From Luteibacter aegosomatis (GTDB lineage Bacteria; Pseudomonadota; Gammaproteobacteria; Xanthomonadales; Rhodanobacteraceae), in the NCBI RefSeq assembly GCF_023078455.1, contig NZ_CP095740.1, forward strand, positions 4,080,001 through 4,144,000: a stretch of DNA of 64,000 nt, written 5' to 3'. The notes below the pieces were generated by a model. It saw only the letters and a list, made by a program, of their open reading frames with translations. It was not told the origin of the DNA and made no database searches. Made by a program: the position numbers and the translations under genes. This document shows positions 56,433-64,000 of the stretch, piece by piece. Position 1 is the first letter of the stretch, and each line of letters opens with the position of its first letter.

Positions 56433-56527
56433 GAGGGAGTCTCCGTACGGGGTTGAGAGCATACCAAGCCGATCCCCCGCGGCCACGTGAACAGGCGGTC
56501 GACGCCCCTCCATGCGAGAATCGACGC

Positions 56528-59248
56528 ATGCCTACGCTCACCCTCATCGACGGGTCCTCGTACCTGTATCGCGCGTTCCACGCGCTCCCTCCGCTGACCA
56601 ATGCCCACGGCGAACCCACCGGGGCGCTGTTCGGCATCGTCAACATGTTGCGCACCACCATGAAGGCCGGCTCCGACTACGTGGCCTTCGTGCTGGATGC
56701 GCCGGGGCGCACCTTCCGCGACGACCTCTACCCCGACTACAAGGCCAATCGGCCTTCCATGCCCGACGACCTGCGCGCGCAGGTCGAGCCGATGATGAAG
56801 ATCGTGTCGGCCCTGGGCTTTCCCATGCTCTGCGTACCGGGCGTGGAGGCCGACGACGTGATCGGCACGCTCGCGCACAAGGCCCGCGAGGCAGGCATCG
56901 ACACCGTGATCTCCACCGGCGACAAGGATTTCGCCCAGCTGGTGGGCGCGCACGTGGTGCTCATCAACACGATGAGCAACACCACGATGGACATCGATGG
57001 GGTGATCGAGAAATTCGGCGTGCGCCCGGAGCAGATCGTCGACTTCCTCACCCTCACCGGCGATTCCATCGACAACGTGCCCGGGGTGGAAAAGTGTGGC
57101 CCGAAAACCGCCGCGAAGTGGTTGGCCGAATATTCCGACCTCGACGCGCTCATGGCCAACGCCGACCGGATCGGCGGCAAGATCGGCGAAAACCTTCGCG
57201 CCGCCCTGCCCCGCCTGCCGTTGTCGCGCGAATTGGTGACCATCCGCACCGACGTGCCGCTCGACCACGGGCCCACCGACCTGACCATGCGCGAACGCGA
57301 CGTGGATGCGTTGCGCGAGTTGTACGAACGCTACGACTTCAAGGCGGCGCTGAAGGATCTCGACGCGGCCGCGCCTTCCGAATCCGCGGCACCGCCCGCC
57401 GCGGTGCCCGCGCAGGCGCCGCTCGTTCCGGCCGCCGAGGTCGACGTCGAATACGAACTGGTCGCCACCGAAGAGCGCCTCGCGGCCTGGCTGGAAAAGC
57501 TGGAAACCGCGCCGCTGATCGCCTTCGATACCGAGACCACCAGCATCGACGCGATGATGGCCGACATCGTCGGCCTGTCGCTGGCCGTGGAGCCGGGCAA
57601 GGCCGCCTACGTGCCGCTCGCGCACGACTACCCGGGCGCGCCGTCGCAGCTGCCGATGGACCACGTGCTCGGCGCGCTCAAACCCATCCTGGAAGATCCG
57701 GCTCGCCCGAAGGTGGGCCAGCACGGCAAGTACGACGTCAACGTGCTCTCGCACTACGGCATCGCGCTGCGCGGCCTCGCCCACGACACGATGCTGGAGT
57801 CGTACGTCCTCAACGCCACCGCCACGCGCCACGACATGGATTCGCTGGCGCAGAAGTACCTCGGCTACACCACCATCAAATACGAGGAAGTGGCCGGCAA
57901 GGGGGCGAAGCAGATTCCGTTCTCGCAGGTCGATTGCGACACCGCCTGCCGCTACGCCGCCGAAGACGCCGACATCACCCTGCGCCTTCACCAGGCCCTG
58001 TGGCCGCAACTCGAAGCCGTGCCTTCGCTGCAGTCGGTGTACCGCGACATCGAGATTCCGCTGGTACCCGTGCTGGCGAAGATGGAACGCACCGGCGTGC
58101 TCATCGACGCCAACGAACTGCGCAAGCAGAGCCAGCACCTGGGCAAGCGCATGCTCGAACTGCAACAGCAGGCCTACGCGTCGGCGGGGCACGAGTTCAA
58201 CCTCGATTCGCCCAAGCAGTTGCAGGCCGTGCTCTTCGACGAACTGGGCCTGCCCGCGAAGGTGAAGACACCGAAAGGCCAGCCGTCCACCAACGAGGAG
58301 GCACTGGAAGCCATCGCCGACGCGCATGAGCTGCCGCGCCTGATCCTCGACTATCGGGGCCTCGCCAAGCTGCGCTCCACCTACACCGACAAGCTGGCCG
58401 GCATCGTCAACCCACGCACCGGCCGCGTGCACACCAGCTACCACCAGGGGGCCGTCGCCACGGGGCGAATCAGCTCGTCCGATCCCAACCTGCAGAACAT
58501 CCCGGTGCGCACCGAAGAAGGCCGGCGCATCCGCCAGGCGTTCGTGGCGCCGCCCGGCTGGCGCATCGTCGCGGCCGATTACTCACAGATCGAATTGCGC
58601 ATCATGGCGCACCTGTCGCGGGACGAAGGCCTGGTGCGTGCCTTCACCGAAGGCGGCGACGTGCACCGCGCCACCGCGGCCGAGGTCTTCGGCGTGCCGC
58701 CGGAGGAGGTGACCACCAACCAACGACGCGCGGCCAAGGCGATCAACTTCGGCCTGATGTACGGCATGAGCGCGTTCGGCCTCGCGCGCCAGCTCGGCGT
58801 GGACCGCGGCGAGGCGTCCGATTACATCGGTCTGTATTTCTCGCGGTACCCGGGCGTGCGCCAGTTCATGGACGACACCCGCGAAAGCGCGCACCGGAAC
58901 GGCTACGTCGAAACACTGTTCGGCCGTCGCCTGTACCTGGAAAACCTCAGTTCCCGCAACCAGGCCCATCGCGCCGGCGCGGAACGCGCGGCCATCAACG
59001 CGCCCATGCAGGGCACGGCGGCCGACATCATCAAGCGCGCCATGATCGCCGTGGCCACCTGGATCGAACCGCGCGACGACGTGCGCCTGCTCATGCAGGT
59101 GCACGACGAACTGGTGTTCGAAGTGCGCGAGGATGCGGTCGACGACGTTCGCGCGAACATCGAAAGGCTCATGACCGGCGCGGCGCAACTGAGCGTGCCG
59201 TTGGAGGTGAGCATCGGGGCGGGTGCGAACTGGGACGAAGCGCACTAA
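56528..59248 (+). CDS. polA: DNA polymerase I
   Basis: A 906-residue Pol I with all three activities: 5'-3' exonuclease (TLIDGSSYLYRAFHALPPL, GVEADDVIGTLA, STGDKDFAQLV), 3'-5' proofreading domain with an intact DxE (FDTETTSIDAMMADIVGLSL), and family A polymerase motifs A (DYSQIELRIMAHLSRDEG), B (RRAAKAINFGLMYGMSAFG) and C (LMQVHDELVFEV). It fills Okazaki gaps and repair patches. No terminator is seen; a mosaic repeat follows at once. Confidence 0.98.
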   Translation: MPTLTLIDGSSYLYRAFHALPPLTNAHGEPTGALFGIVNMLRTTMKAGSDYVAFVLDAPGRTFRDDLYPDYKANRPSMPDDLRAQVEPMMKIVSALGFPMLCVPGVEADDVIGTLAHKAREAGIDTVISTGDKDFAQLVGAHVVLINTMSNTTMDIDGVIEKFGVRPEQIVDFLTLTGDSIDNVPGVEKCGPKTAAKWLAEYSDLDALMANADRIGGKIGENLRAALPRLPLSRELVTIRTDVPLDHGPTDLTMRERDVDALRELYERYDFKAALKDLDAAAPSESAAPPAAVPAQAPLVPAAEVDVEYELVATEERLAAWLEKLETAPLIAFDTETTSIDAMMADIVGLSLAVEPGKAAYVPLAHDYPGAPSQLPMDHVLGALKPILEDPARPKVGQHGKYDVNVLSHYGIALRGLAHDTMLESYVLNATATRHDMDSLAQKYLGYTTIKYEEVAGKGAKQIPFSQVDCDTACRYAAEDADITLRLHQALWPQLEAVPSLQSVYRDIEIPLVPVLAKMERTGVLIDANELRKQSQHLGKRMLELQQQAYASAGHEFNLDSPKQLQAVLFDELGLPAKVKTPKGQPSTNEEALEAIADAHELPRLILDYRGLAKLRSTYTDKLAGIVNPRTGRVHTSYHQGAVATGRISSSDPNLQNIPVRTEEGRRIRQAFVAPPGWRIVAADYSQIELRIMAHLSRDEGLVRAFTEGGDVHRATAAEVFGVPPEEVTTNQRRAAKAINFGLMYGMSAFGLARQLGVDRGEASDYIGLYFSRYPGVRQFMDDTRESAHRNGYVETLFGRRLYLENLSSRNQAHRAGAERAAINAPMQGTAADIIKRAMIAVATWIEPRDDVRLLMQVHDELVFEVREDAVDDVRANIERLMTGAAQLSVPLEVSIGAGANWDEAH

Positions 59249-60708: not shown

Positions 60709-60791
60709 GCACTGGGTTCCTGCGTGCGCAGGAACGACGTGAGGGGGTTATACGCCACGGTCATTCTTGTAGCCCGTCGTTCCTGCGCACG
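60709..60791. repeat. Inverted repeat, family C (copy 3), left part, interrupted by IS481 element
   Basis: The left arm (60709-60737, core GGTTCCTGCGTGCGCAGGAAC) and the start of the right arm (60776-60791) are here. The remainder of the right arm resumes at 62062-62083 after the insertion sequence. Removing the IS and one 6-base duplication restores a continuous palindrome like the copy at 49001. Confidence 0.92.
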
Positions 60792-60835
60792 TGTATAGAC
60801 CGGACACATAGCTGACAGGTGTGCCAGGACATGGT
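60792..60835 (+). repeat. Left terminal inverted repeat of the IS481 element
   Basis: Starts TGTATAGACCGGACACAT and ends in the CCAGGACATGGT block shared with the right end. Six mismatches to the right end, four of them clustered at positions 19-23. Confidence 0.9.
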
Positions 60836-60878
60836 TTACACCTCGACCGCCAACCTGTGGCGGCCAGAGGCCCATCCC

Positions 60879-62010
60879 ATGCCCTGGAAGGAAGCGTCAG
60901 TCATGAGTTTGCGTGCCGAGTTTCTCGCCCTGGCCCGGCGCCCGGACCAGCCCGTGGCGCCGCTGTGCCGGCGGTTCGGGATCAGCCGGACGACCGGCTA
61001 TAAATGGCTCCGCCGGGAGGCGGCCGCGGAGCCGCTGGCGGACCGGTCACGTCGTCCGCACCGCAGTCCTGGGCAGACGGCGGCCGAGACCGAAGCCCGT
61101 ATCCTGGCGCTGCGGCACACTTATCCCCATTGGGGCGGGCGCAAGCTGGCCAAGGTGCTGGAACGGGGAAGGTTGCGATGCGCCCGCGCCCAGCACGATC
61201 ACCCACATCCTGCGTCGCCATGGCCTGCTGTGGCGCCCCACCGAGGCGGTGATCACGCCCTGGCAGCGCTTCGAGCACAGCGCGCCTAACGATCTGTGGC
61301 AGATGGACTTCAAGGGATCGGTGCCGGTGGGGGCGGGCCAGTGCGATCCGTTGACCGTGCTCGACGATCACTCCCGTTTCAACCTGGTGCTGGCCAACAA
61401 CGCCGATAAGACAGGCCTGACGGTACGACGCCTGCTCACGGCGGCGTTTCGTCGCTACGGGCTGCCGTTGCGCATGAACATGGACAACGGCACGCCGTGG
61501 GGCGTGGGCAACGGCCCGGCACGCCATCTGTCGACCTTGTCGGTGTGGCTGGTGGAGCTGGGTATCCACGTGAGTTTCAGCCGTCCGTTCCATCCCCAGA
61601 CCAACGGCAAGGACGAGCGTTTCCACCGAAGCCTGGACGTGGAGGTGCTGCGCGGCCGGGCTTTCCTCAACCTCAGGGAGCTGGGCCTGGCGCTGGATCA
61701 CTGGCGGGAGATCTACAACCACGTGCGTCCGCACGAAGGCATCGGCATGGTCACGCCGGTGCAGCGTTACCGGATCAGTCCGCGCGCCTTTCCCGAGCGG
61801 ATCGCGGCGTTTGAGTACGGCCCGGATGACTTGCGGTTACATGTCGACCAGCGAGGTCGAACCCAGCTGCTGGGCCATCCTCTGACGGTGTCGTCGGCCC
61901 TGAAGGCCCAGATCATCGCCGCCCGCCCGCAGGACGGGCAGGACGGCATCTATGACCTGTATTTCCGTCATCACTGGCTCGACACCGTCAACCTGCGAGA
62001 CCTGGACTAA
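60879..62010 (+). pseudogene. IS481-family transposase, frameshifted
   Basis: The N-terminal part reads MPWKEASVMSLRAEFLALAR with the helix-turn-helix CRRFGISRTTGYKWLRREA in one frame up to LAKVLERG. The catalytic rve/DDE part continues one frame over, from DAPAPSTITHILRRHGLLWR to the stop: LWQMDFKGSVPVG (first Asp), LTVLDDHSRFNLVL, RMNMDNGTPWG (second Asp) and NGKDERFHRSLDVEVL (Glu). The switch maps to the run GGGG at 61165-61168; one G fewer would restore VLEREGCDAPAPSTI. So it is a single-base indel, a programmed slip site, or a sequencing error. Confidence 0.9.
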
Positions 62011-62017
62011 AGTGTCC

Positions 62018-62061
62018 ACCATGTCCTGGCACACCTGTTCACCATGTGCCCGGTCTGTACA
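62018..62061 (-). repeat. Right terminal inverted repeat of the IS481 element
   Basis: Inverse copy of the left end, finishing in ...GGTCTGTACA. It starts eight bases after the transposase stop codon. Confidence 0.9.
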
Positions 62062-62083
62062 CGCACGCAGGAACCCAGCGCCT
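62062..62083. repeat. Family C repeat (copy 3), right part after the IS
   Basis: Begins with the duplicated CGCACG and continues CAGGAACCCAGCGCC, completing the palindrome cut by the insertion sequence. Confidence 0.9.
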
Positions 62084-62246
62084 CTCGTCCGAGGGAGCGA
62101 CAACGTTCCATCGGCTCTTGATCTTCGCGCCGCGAGCATGTCGCACGCTTGAATCGCCGACGAAATCGTCTCCCACAACATCACCGACTCACCCGACACC
62201 GCACCGCCGAAAGAGCCCCGGCCGCGCGCCCTGTCGGCCGCGTTAG

Positions 62247-62477
62247 GCGCCCGAGGACCTCGAAGCGGAAGAGACCCCGCAGGGGCGCCGGTCAGGATGA
62301 CCGGCGTTCTTCGCCGAGACAGGATGTCGAGTCGAAGAATCCCGCGTAGAGGTCCGCGCTCCGAAGGGGACGGGCGACGTGCGGCCGACAGCGCGCGCGT
62401 CCGGGGCGACCGCCTCGGTCCGCATCGCGCTTCGCGCCGAAGGCGCGTGGATACACGCATTCGCTGGAAGCGAATGA
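62247..62477 (+). other. Run of hairpins, three with GGA loops (possible structured RNA)
   Basis: Within 230 bases there is a chain of short inverted repeats: CGAG-GAC-CTCG (62252-62262), CGCCGGTCA-GGA-TGACCGGCG (62286-62306, perfect nine-base stem), GACA-GGA-TGTC (62318-62328), GACCG-CCT-CGGTC (62408-62420), CGCGCC-GAA-GGCGCG (about 62434-62448) and CATTCGCT-GGA-AGCGAATG (62458-62476), then the palindrome AACCGGTT. No reading frame with coding character crosses it. GGA in hairpin loops is the binding signature of CsrA/RsmA, so a decoy RNA is possible. No promoter or terminator of its own is evident. Confidence 0.4.
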
Positions 62478-62610
62478 ACCGGTTGCAGGCGACAAGGCGT
62501 GGGCCGGGCCACCGCCCCGGTCCAATTCGTTGGCAATACGTTAAATGAACCCCGGGTAACTTTTTTCGCCCTCGCCTGCAACTTTGCCCCGCCCCGGACG
62601 TCTATAGCTT

Positions 62611-62742
62611 CGGACGTACGCAACGGCGTCCGCATCGGTGTGTCCCACCTCCCTGGGACAACCTCGGAGCGACCCGGCTTTCCCCTGGGCCGGCCGCTCC
62701 CCGGGCCCCGGAAGCTCCCCTGGCTTCCGGGGCTTTTTTTTG
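62611..62742 (+). ncRNA. Candidate small RNA with C-rich hairpin loops (sX13-like)
   Basis: Four stem-loops end in an intrinsic terminator with no CDS in front: SL1 CGGACG...CGTCCG (62611-62632); SL2 TGTCCCA-CCTCCC-TGGGACA (62641-62660); SL3 CCGGC-TTTCCCCTGG-GCCGG (62674-62693); SL4, the terminator hairpin, with loop TCCCCTG. Three loops expose C-rich (CCTCCC/CCCC) motifs able to pair with Shine-Dalgarno sequences. TATAGC at 62603 could be a -10 box, but no -35 at good spacing is seen, so the 5' end is uncertain. From memory, xanthomonad sX13 is of similar size, has C-rich loops and lies near polA; I could not check this. Confidence 0.6.
62705..62742 (+). terminator. Strong intrinsic terminator of the sRNA candidate
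   Basis: A perfect 11-base stem GCCCCGGAAGC / GCTTCCGGGGC with a seven-base loop, followed by nine T (62734-62742). It is the strongest terminator in the window, yet no protein gene lies before it on this strand. Confidence 0.95.
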
Positions 62743-62794
62743 CCTTCACATTTGTCAGTGCATCCTCCGTTCCACCCAAACAGGAGGCACATCC

Positions 62795-63013
62795 ATGCGC
62801 GCAGGACTCATCATCGTCGGCGTCATCCTCATCGGCCTGGGCATCTGGGTCGTCGCCGGCAACGGCAGCTACAGCAAGACCGATACCCTGGCGCAGGTCG
62901 GCTCGGCCAAGATCACCGCCACGCACGACAAGTCCGTGCCGCAATGGGTGGGCATCGCCGGCATCGTGATCGGCGGCATCGTCGCGGTGGCGGGCATCGC
63001 GCGGAAACGCTGA
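62795..63013 (+). CDS. Small membrane protein, DUF3185-like
   Basis: A 72-residue protein with two membrane helices (AGLIIVGVILIGLGIWVVAG and VGIAGIVIGGIVAVAGIA) joined by a short polar loop (SYSKTDTLAQVGSAKITATH). The layout and the loop resemble DUF3185 proteins. Function unknown. AGGAGG lies at ideal spacing before the ATG, so it is probably well translated. uvrD follows after 23 bases and may be co-transcribed. Confidence 0.75.
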   Translation: MRAGLIIVGVILIGLGIWVVAGNGSYSKTDTLAQVGSAKITATHDKSVPQWVGIAGIVIGGIVAVAGIARKR

Positions 63014-63036
63014 GCCCGGCCCGTTACAATGGGAGA

Positions 63037-64000
63037 ATGGATGTCTCCCACCTTCTCGACGACCTCAACGAGGCCCAGCGCGAGGCCGTCAGTGCCGCGC
63101 CGGGCCATTACCTGATCCTCGCGGGCGCCGGCTCGGGCAAAACCCGCGTACTCACCCACCGGATCGGCTGGCTCACCCAGGTCGAGCGCGTGCCGCCCTG
63201 GGCGATCCTCGCGGTCACCTTCACCAACAAGGCGGCGGGCGAGATGCGCGCCCGTCTCGACGGCCTCATTCCCGGAGGCACGCAGGGCCTCACCGTGGGC
63301 ACGTTCCACGGCATCGCCCATCGCCTGCTGCGCCGCCATTGGCGCGAGGCCGGCCTCGTGGAGGGTTTCCAGATCCTCGATTCAGACGACCAGCAGCGCC
63401 TGATCAAGCGCGTGGTCGCCGGCATGGGCCTGGACGAGGCCCGCTTCCCGCCGCGCCAGGCCGCCTGGCAGATCAACCAGTGGAAGGACGAAGGCAAGCG
63501 CCCCGACGGCATCGAACATCGCGACCACCCGGTGACGCGCACCTTCGTCGAGATCTACAAGGCCTACGAACAGCAGTGCCAGCGCGCCGGACTGGTCGAT
63601 TTCGCCGAGCTGCTGCTGCGCGCGCACGAGCTGTGGCTGAAGGATCCCCAGGTGCTGCGCCATTACCAGGATCGGTGGCGTTACCTGCTCATCGACGAGT
63701 TCCAGGACACCAACACCCTGCAATACGCGTGGATCCGCGTGCTCGCCGGCCAGACCGGCCAAGCCTTCGTGGTGGGCGACGACGACCAGGCCATCTACGG
63801 ATGGCGCGGTGCGCGCGTGGAAAACGTGCAGCAGTTCCTCAACGACTTCCCCGGCGCGAAGACGATCCGCCTGGAGCAGAACTACCGCTCCACCTCGACG
63901 ATCCTCAACGCCGCCAACGCGGTCATCGCGCGCAACGGCGGCCGCCTCGGCAAGCAGCTGTGGACCGACGGCGACGAGGGCGACCGCATCGCGCTCTACG
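63037..64000 (+). CDS. uvrD: DNA helicase II UvrD, N-terminal part
   Basis: The first 321 residues of a superfamily 1A helicase; the gene runs off the window. It starts MDVSHLLDDLNEAQREAVSA (Q motif) and continues with Walker A ILAGAGSGKTRVLTHRI (motif I), ILAVTFTNKAAGEMRARL (Ia), GLTVGTFHGIAHRLLRRHW (Ib), LLIDEFQDTNTLQYAWIRVL (II), VVGDDDQAIYGWRGA (III) and LEQNYRSTSTILNAANAVI (IV). GTFHG and the GDDDQ form fit UvrD rather than Rep. It acts in mismatch and nucleotide-excision repair. Confidence 0.95.
   Translation, partial: MDVSHLLDDLNEAQREAVSAAPGHYLILAGAGSGKTRVLTHRIGWLTQVERVPPWAILAVTFTNKAAGEMRARLDGLIPGGTQGLTVGTFHGIAHRLLRRHWREAGLVEGFQILDSDDQQRLIKRVVAGMGLDEARFPPRQAAWQINQWKDEGKRPDGIEHRDHPVTRTFVEIYKAYEQQCQRAGLVDFAELLLRAHELWLKDPQVLRHYQDRWRYLLIDEFQDTNTLQYAWIRVLAGQTGQAFVVGDDDQAIYGWRGARVENVQQFLNDFPGAKTIRLEQNYRSTSTILNAANAVIARNGGRLGKQLWTDGDEGDRIALY

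Follow-up and report, generated by a model that had tools for sequence, protein, structure and literature searches.

The closest described relative of the element reported here is sX13, a small RNA (sRNA) whose C-rich loops act on G-rich motifs near start codons and whose repressed mRNAs include hfq, as stated in the accessible part of the sX13 paper (PMC3771888). That part of the paper places the gene in Xanthomonas, Xylella, Stenotrophomonas, and Pseudoxanthomonas, ascribes to the alphaproteobacterial RNA ar7 a gene at polA, three stem-loops, and C-rich motifs, and leaves open whether polA-linked sRNAs elsewhere act alike. Another such RNA, ErsA, is located between polA and engB and is sigma22-dependent, according to the available portions of PMC8575079 and PMC5819304. 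Here, we describe an sX13-type sRNA gene of about 130 nucleotides (nt) at 62612..62741 on the forward strand of a 64,000-nt stretch of the Luteibacter aegosomatis genome (contig NZ_CP095740.1, positions 4,080,001 to 4,144,000; hereafter the window). We estimate a probability of nearly four in five that this window sRNA is the orthologue of sX13 in Rhodanobacteraceae, transcribed from its own sigmaE-type promoter and using its C-rich loops on G-rich ribosome sites.

The region 62612-62741 has the appearance of a genuine small-RNA gene. Its 5′ end was placed from the predicted promoter and its 3′ end from the terminator, and between them the sequence forms four hairpins. The folding energy of 62600-62750 (151 nt) was -75.6 kcal/mol, against a mean of -56.7 for 200 dinucleotide shuffles, none of which was as low (z -5.30). 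The first element is a 5′ hairpin (62612..62631, GGACGUACGCAACGGCGUCC) with a near-invariant GCAAC loop. Hairpin 1 (62641..62660) has a 7-bp stem and the loop CCTCCC (62648-62653; CCUCCC in the RNA) inside CACCUCCCUG, while hairpin 2 (62666..62700) displays the loop TCCCCT (62681-62686; UCCCCU) inside UUUCCCCUGG. Hairpin 3 (62705..62741) is an intrinsic terminator with an 11-bp stem (62705-62715 pairing with 62723-62733), the loop TCCCCTG (UCCCCUG), and a run of 8 T (62734-62741); a terminator search placed it at 62703-62735. The original prediction, made from the letters of this stretch, had proposed an orphan sRNA with three C-rich hairpin loops between polA and uvrD. Its loops CCTCCC and TCCCCTG are as described, and loop 2 is near the TTTCCCCTGG that it gave, provided that two G-U pairs open. 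The 11-bp terminator stem was also correct, with eight T behind it in place of the nine claimed. The 5′ hairpin with its covariation, the sigmaE-type promoter, and the link, through a model named R2 below, to a wider family of polA-linked RNAs had all been missed and are new here.

Comparison with related genomes supports this structure. A DNA search found matching sequence in 31 of 61 genomes, including all 23 of the genus Luteibacter (L. aegosomatis counted). Alignment A1 was made with 24 of the 29 sequences extracted, and the covariance model R1 was built from it. In A1, 95.4% of the cells were paired and 22 of the 39 pairs had changed on both sides. These both-side changes affected 2/8 pairs of the 5′ hairpin (helix 1, in which all cells were paired), 6/10 of hairpin 1 (helix 2), 8/10 of hairpin 2 (helix 3), and 6/11 of the terminator (helix 4), so that the compensatory changes proposed as a check by the original prediction are numerous in the stems. 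On each of five measures, none of 500 shuffles reached the observed value, and sliding the partners lowered the paired cells to 29-49%. Meanwhile, all columns of the runs CTCCCT, CCCCTGG, and CCC were invariant, with at least 90% likeness at the A and C that precede CTCCCT. This pattern, in which covarying stems carry near-fixed loops, suggests that the RNA acts via its loops.

When no gathering cut-off was applied, the best Rfam match in 62400-62900 was sX13 (RF02232), which aligned at 62622-62739 over positions 1-115 of the 115 of the model. Both genes lie downstream of polA on the same strand, and both RNAs have three stem-loops with C-rich apical loops in equal order, the last of which is the terminator. 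The likeness to sX13 that the original prediction had proposed is supported by the full-length match, though this is below the Rfam cut-off, and by the polA link in the relatives examined. At 36 of 40 loci with an R1 match, a same-strand polA preceded the RNA by 78-336 nt; at the other four, which include the window, the distance was 1.9-3.4 kb. In a second family, taken as Xanthomonadaceae from its best sX13 scores, polA was 140-351 nt upstream at 17 of the 18 loci examined and 503 nt upstream at the remaining one, and the R1 and sX13 matches fall at identical places. Across 299 genomes of the order, R1 matched 171 and the sX13 model 146; the R1 matches listed include 76 genomes of the window's own family (L. 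aegosomatis included), taken as Rhodanobacteraceae, which also contributed 16 of the 83 genomes with sX13 matches above the cut-off. Because of these match patterns and the polA linkage, the window sRNA and sX13 appear to be one gene by descent, yet one that falls outside RF02232 as drawn. Hence, we regard the window sRNA as an sX13 orthologue and not as a formal member of RF02232.

The two RNAs also differ. Loop 1 reads CCUCCC in the window sRNA and CCCC in sX13, the window sRNA has a sigmaE-type promoter whereas sX13 of Xanthomonadaceae has another one, and the Rfam model lacks the 5′ hairpin. Inspection by eye shows a similar hairpin in the sX13 of Xanthomonadaceae, where the Rfam model starts within its loop. 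The 5′ region of sX13 is described as unstructured in the accessible part of PMC3771888. Either the known 5′ end of sX13 is a processed end, or the 5′ stem serves another role.

The upstream sequence strongly suggests a promoter of the sigmaE type. The predicted promoter (62578..62606, forward strand) consists of GCAACTT (62578-62584), a 16-nt spacer, and TCTATA (62601-62606), and we take the consensus of RpoE (sigmaE) to be GGAACTT-N16-TCTRA. We compared 67 upstream sequences from Rhodanobacteraceae, 66 of them distinct. In 64 of the 66, the motif G[AC]AACT[TA] preceded the GCAAC loop by 41-44 nt (by exactly 42 nt in 55 upstreams), where 0.19 would be expected by chance; the other two have GAACTT at that same place. 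Sixteen nt past the first box, these upstreams display a box resembling TCTATA, TCTAAG, or TTCCAAT. The rpoE gene of L. aegosomatis (322 bits to TIGR02939) is itself preceded, about 50 nt before its ATG and as read by eye, by TGAACTT-N16-TCTCAT. With such a promoter, the window sRNA should rise under envelope stress. As for sX13, the consulted part of PMC3771888 reports higher levels at high salt, at 37 °C, and in MMA medium.

An alternative is that this sX13 orthologue relies on the housekeeping sigma factor for constitutive transcription from the box TATAGC (62603-62608), which resembles TATAAT, and that GCAACTT binds something else. At the sX13 loci of Xanthomonadaceae, TATA-type boxes (for example TTATATCC) are present and GAACTT is absent, and sX13 is called constitutively expressed in a passage of PMC3771888. 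Nevertheless, we consider this explanation unlikely. No sigma-70 pair was found in 62000-63100, the fixed G[AC]AACTT with its 16-nt spacing and the TGAACTT-N16-TCTCAT of rpoE are a better fit to sigmaE, and a similar motif occurs upstream of related RNAs in other families.

Regarding function, we propose that a sigmaE (RpoE)-type promoter belonging to the gene would drive the window sRNA as a free transcript of about 130 nt, which would end at the strong terminator. Its three stems would then present near-invariant C-rich loops, one of which copies the anti-Shine-Dalgarno sequence while two read UCCCCU. Loop 1 lies within CACCUCC, which we take to be the same as the anti-Shine-Dalgarno of 16S rRNA. 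By pairing with G-rich ribosome sites, these loops may reduce the translation of many mRNAs, a multi-target mode of action made plausible by the near invariance of the loops and by the published work on sX13, as far as the accessible part of PMC3771888 describes it. The first candidate target would be hfq. A further trait of sX13 is the Hfq-independent repression of mRNAs with a 4G motif; on this point, our comparison covered the motif at the ribosome site of hfq. It used 28 of 30 hfq loci (L380 among them), and 5 of the 23 Luteibacter genomes searched were without such a locus. AGGGGA, which is complementary to UCCCCU, was found shortly before the AUG of hfq in all 18 Luteibacter loci examined.

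The arrangement seen in the window recurs beyond the order. A polA match was present in 176 class genomes, and in 148 of these we surveyed 880 nt (less at contig ends) behind polA. A sigmaE-like motif was present within 500 nt behind polA on the coding strand in 26 of these 148 regions and on the other strand in 4, and 50 mononucleotide shuffles gave a mean of 3.9 and a maximum of 8. At least two C-loop hairpins were detected within 600 nt in 42/148 regions, against 8 on the other strand and 34/740 shuffles, and 19/148 regions had both the motif and the hairpins. The recurring layout comprises the promoter, a 5′ hairpin, a CCUCCCU loop, a CCCCA-like loop, and a C-rich terminator loop. For a second covariance model, R2, we used 28 of 41 extracted segments, several of them hand-trimmed, all of which represent polA-linked RNAs from other families of Gammaproteobacteria; its seeds exclude the order of the window and G469, the one genome above the ErsA cut-off. 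Both-side changes occurred in 19 of the 20 pairs of the R2 alignment. In the 64-kb window, the single R2 match at E-values up to 10 was the window sRNA (62605-62739, E 5.9e-10), and R2 also detects sX13 and ErsA.

Two further searches assessed the reach of R2. In 42 loci chosen for holding such RNAs (257 kb), it gave 45 matches at E up to 1 and all loci were matched; L198 and L281 among them contain the same ErsA-type RNA. All but one of these matches were at places known from R1, Rfam, or the polA survey, and the remaining one, elsewhere in L210 and accompanied by a GAACTT motif of its own, is likely a second copy. Genome-wide, R2 had matches in 105 of 185 class genomes. The best match lay within 2.5 kb behind polA and on its strand in 25 of the 77 matched non-seed genomes (69 with a polA position), a placement for which the chance of a random match is about 0.04%. 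From the 138 matches listed, we fetched 20 high-scoring ones away from polA, and 8 of these face engB within 100 nt. The sigmaE motif, which is outside the R2 model, was present at 14 of these 20 and at 12 of 26 non-seed polA-linked matches (14 without, including both from Xanthomonadaceae); both are raw counts without a chance rate, and the latter excludes two of 28 matches, namely that of G333 and the second of G435. A second match in G037 lies, by eye, behind the end of a coding frame and looks unrelated, so family membership should not be assumed for every weaker R2 match.

Comparison with the other named RNAs gave graded results. The second-best Rfam match of the window sRNA was anti-hemB/Burkholderia RNA 7 (RF02837; 24.5 bits, E 0.0014, cut-off 49.5 bits). 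Of the nine class genomes above the anti-hemB cut-off, eight had an R2 match at the same place, and the ninth above-cut-off match lies 119 nt behind polA; the anti-hemB model, with 81 positions, is shorter than the window sRNA. The ErsA model (Pseudomon-1, RF01719) gave 14.8 bits (E 2.7) on the window sRNA, below its 50-bit cut-off. This model was set aside as a direct detector, since it matched 8 of 185 class genomes, of which only G469 was above the cut-off. The ErsA-like RNA of G469 follows polA at a distance of 84 nt, is preceded by a GAACTT-type box, and was detected by R2 at 32.6 bits; by eye, the middle part of ErsA looks unlike that of the window sRNA. The models of ar14 and ar7 gave weak matches to related RNAs, all below cut-off. 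The original prediction had also drawn a comparison with Spot 42 (spf) of Escherichia coli, which holds for the gene place behind polA. We rejected Spot 42 as the same gene, as R2 gave 4.4 bits (E 2.7) at spf, that is, no match; the Spot 42 model had no gathering-score match in the window and none in 62400-62900 at E up to 10.

It is fairly probable, in our judgment, that sX13, Pseudomonas ErsA, Burkholderia anti-hemB, and the window sRNA are branches of one old gammaproteobacterial sRNA family. Its members would be encoded in the polA-engB region, often with a sigmaE promoter, and would share ordered loops (one anti-Shine-Dalgarno-like, two CCCC) and serve as an envelope-stress-induced translational brake; Xanthomonadaceae would have lost the sigmaE promoter, and Luteibacter would carry a second copy with a sigmaE promoter. 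Burkholderiales are counted within Gammaproteobacteria by the GTDB. The opposing view, that these RNAs are non-homologous and that C-rich three-hairpin RNAs arose repeatedly, draws on the mean column identity of the R2 alignment (just 46%), the unrelated-looking matches such as that in G037, the lack of a match to the similarly placed Spot 42, and the below-cut-off matches of the anti-hemB model in 3 of 14 control genomes. Repeated origin has to contend with the equal loop order, with the many genomes in which the RNA is located behind polA or faces engB, with an upstream promoter motif that R2 does not contain, and with the 42 loci, in which no R2 match at E up to 1 fell outside RNA-like places. 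We therefore regard it as doubtful.

Several observations weigh against our interpretation of the window sRNA. No Rfam family reached its gathering score anywhere in the 64-kb window. The Infernal search with the sX13 model, suggested by the original prediction, did yield a full-length match, but at 39.2 bits (E 5.4e-6 in 501 nt) it remained below the 50-bit gathering score. Among the 14 genus members covered by the sX13 search (L. aegosomatis included), 7 had no match at E 0.001 and the 7 matched were all below the cut-off. R1 had no match in the examined flank of 13 of the 52 named loci found via the small open reading frame (ORF) described below, and R2 missed L. aegosomatis itself under the stricter genome-wide filters, though it matched the window directly. 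The examined sX13 upstreams of Xanthomonadaceae lack a sigmaE-type motif. In the L. aegosomatis genome, the pattern GVAACTT-N16-TCNAW, which excludes the first T of the rpoE motif, had 7 matches, two of which are the window sRNA and a second C-rich small RNA, and this number is near chance, as the reversed control gave 4; the weight of the promoter motif hence lies in its fixed position. As for hfq, GGGG at its ribosome site may merely be a good ribosome site, and the GGGG after the AUG in two Xanthomonadaceae genomes is AGGG in Luteibacter. Since AGGGGA stands before the AUG even so, hfq could be a target via a moved site.

The second C-rich small RNA lies outside the window (G000:C1:92499-92630; L143:3500-3631) and was found by R1 with 46.8 bits. 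Its DNA was matched in 23 of 23 sampled Luteibacter genomes. It has a perfect promoter, GGAACTT-N16-TCTAA, which recurs in 22 of 23 Luteibacter loci, and it is the one match to the strict GGAACTT-N16-TCTRA in its genome. Its last two hairpins display UUUCCCCUG and CUCCUCCCCUGG. No Rfam family was above cut-off for this RNA (ar14 33.7 of 58.8 bits, sX13 32.6 of 50). Two Luteibacter genomes have three tandem matches to it, at G015:C2:943391-944159 (L177) and G020:C1:1283518-1284134 (L176).

The polA gene for DNA polymerase I (56453..59248, forward strand; Pfam DNA_pol_A, 533 bits) is the conserved upstream neighbour of the window sRNA and lies 3363 nt from it. An insertion sequence (60779..62074, forward strand) stands in between, in agreement with the claim that an insertion element had stretched the polA link to more than 3 kb. 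It has 63-nt inverted ends (60779-60841 and 62012-62074; 84% complementary) and a transposase-like ORF with integrase core domains (60913-62010). The long intervals between polA and the RNA at the Luteibacter loci L032, L039, and L060 (1.9-3.0 kb) resemble each other and had no blastn match to the window interval at E 1e-10. Longer forms of the polA-linked RNA, of about 163 nt, occur at L028, L034, L036, L040, and L070, with an extra CCCCUGG hairpin in L028 (contig shared with L036), and tandem forms of two or more copies behind polA were seen at L081, L150, and G477:C33:13150-13909.

A small ORF of 72 amino acids (62795..63013, forward strand) is a frequent neighbour between the window sRNA and uvrD; 52 loci encode relatives of it, and no match of the protein to Pfam was found at E 0.001. 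A 57% identical copy of this Rhodanobacteraceae ORF is encoded in a record with the title Candidimonas humi (L069), possibly from a mislabelled or contaminated contig. It is very improbable that the window sRNA is a regulatory leader or attenuator of the small-ORF/uvrD transcript and not a free sRNA, as the ORF, frequent neighbour though it is and beginning just 53 nt past the T run, can be far off (gaps of 4137 nt in L053 and 2432 nt in L070) where the RNA form is kept, and the related RNA in other families faces engB instead.

Collectively, our computations demonstrate the kinship, structure, conservation, and polA linkage of the window sRNA as well as the fixed position of its promoter motif. 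They also hint that several separately named bacterial RNAs form one old family, to which sX13, ErsA, anti-hemB, and the window sRNA may belong. A literature search of limited scope found no paper that names ErsA and sX13 together, and one in which sX13 and RpoE each occur a single time. These findings turn the question of polA-linked sRNAs into a testable family with a common place, loops, and promoter kind. They predict that sX13-type RNAs outside Xanthomonadaceae take part in the sigmaE envelope-stress response, like ErsA. If this is true, target data from Xanthomonas and Pseudomonas would become comparable, and there would be a case for joining these RNAs in an Rfam clan.
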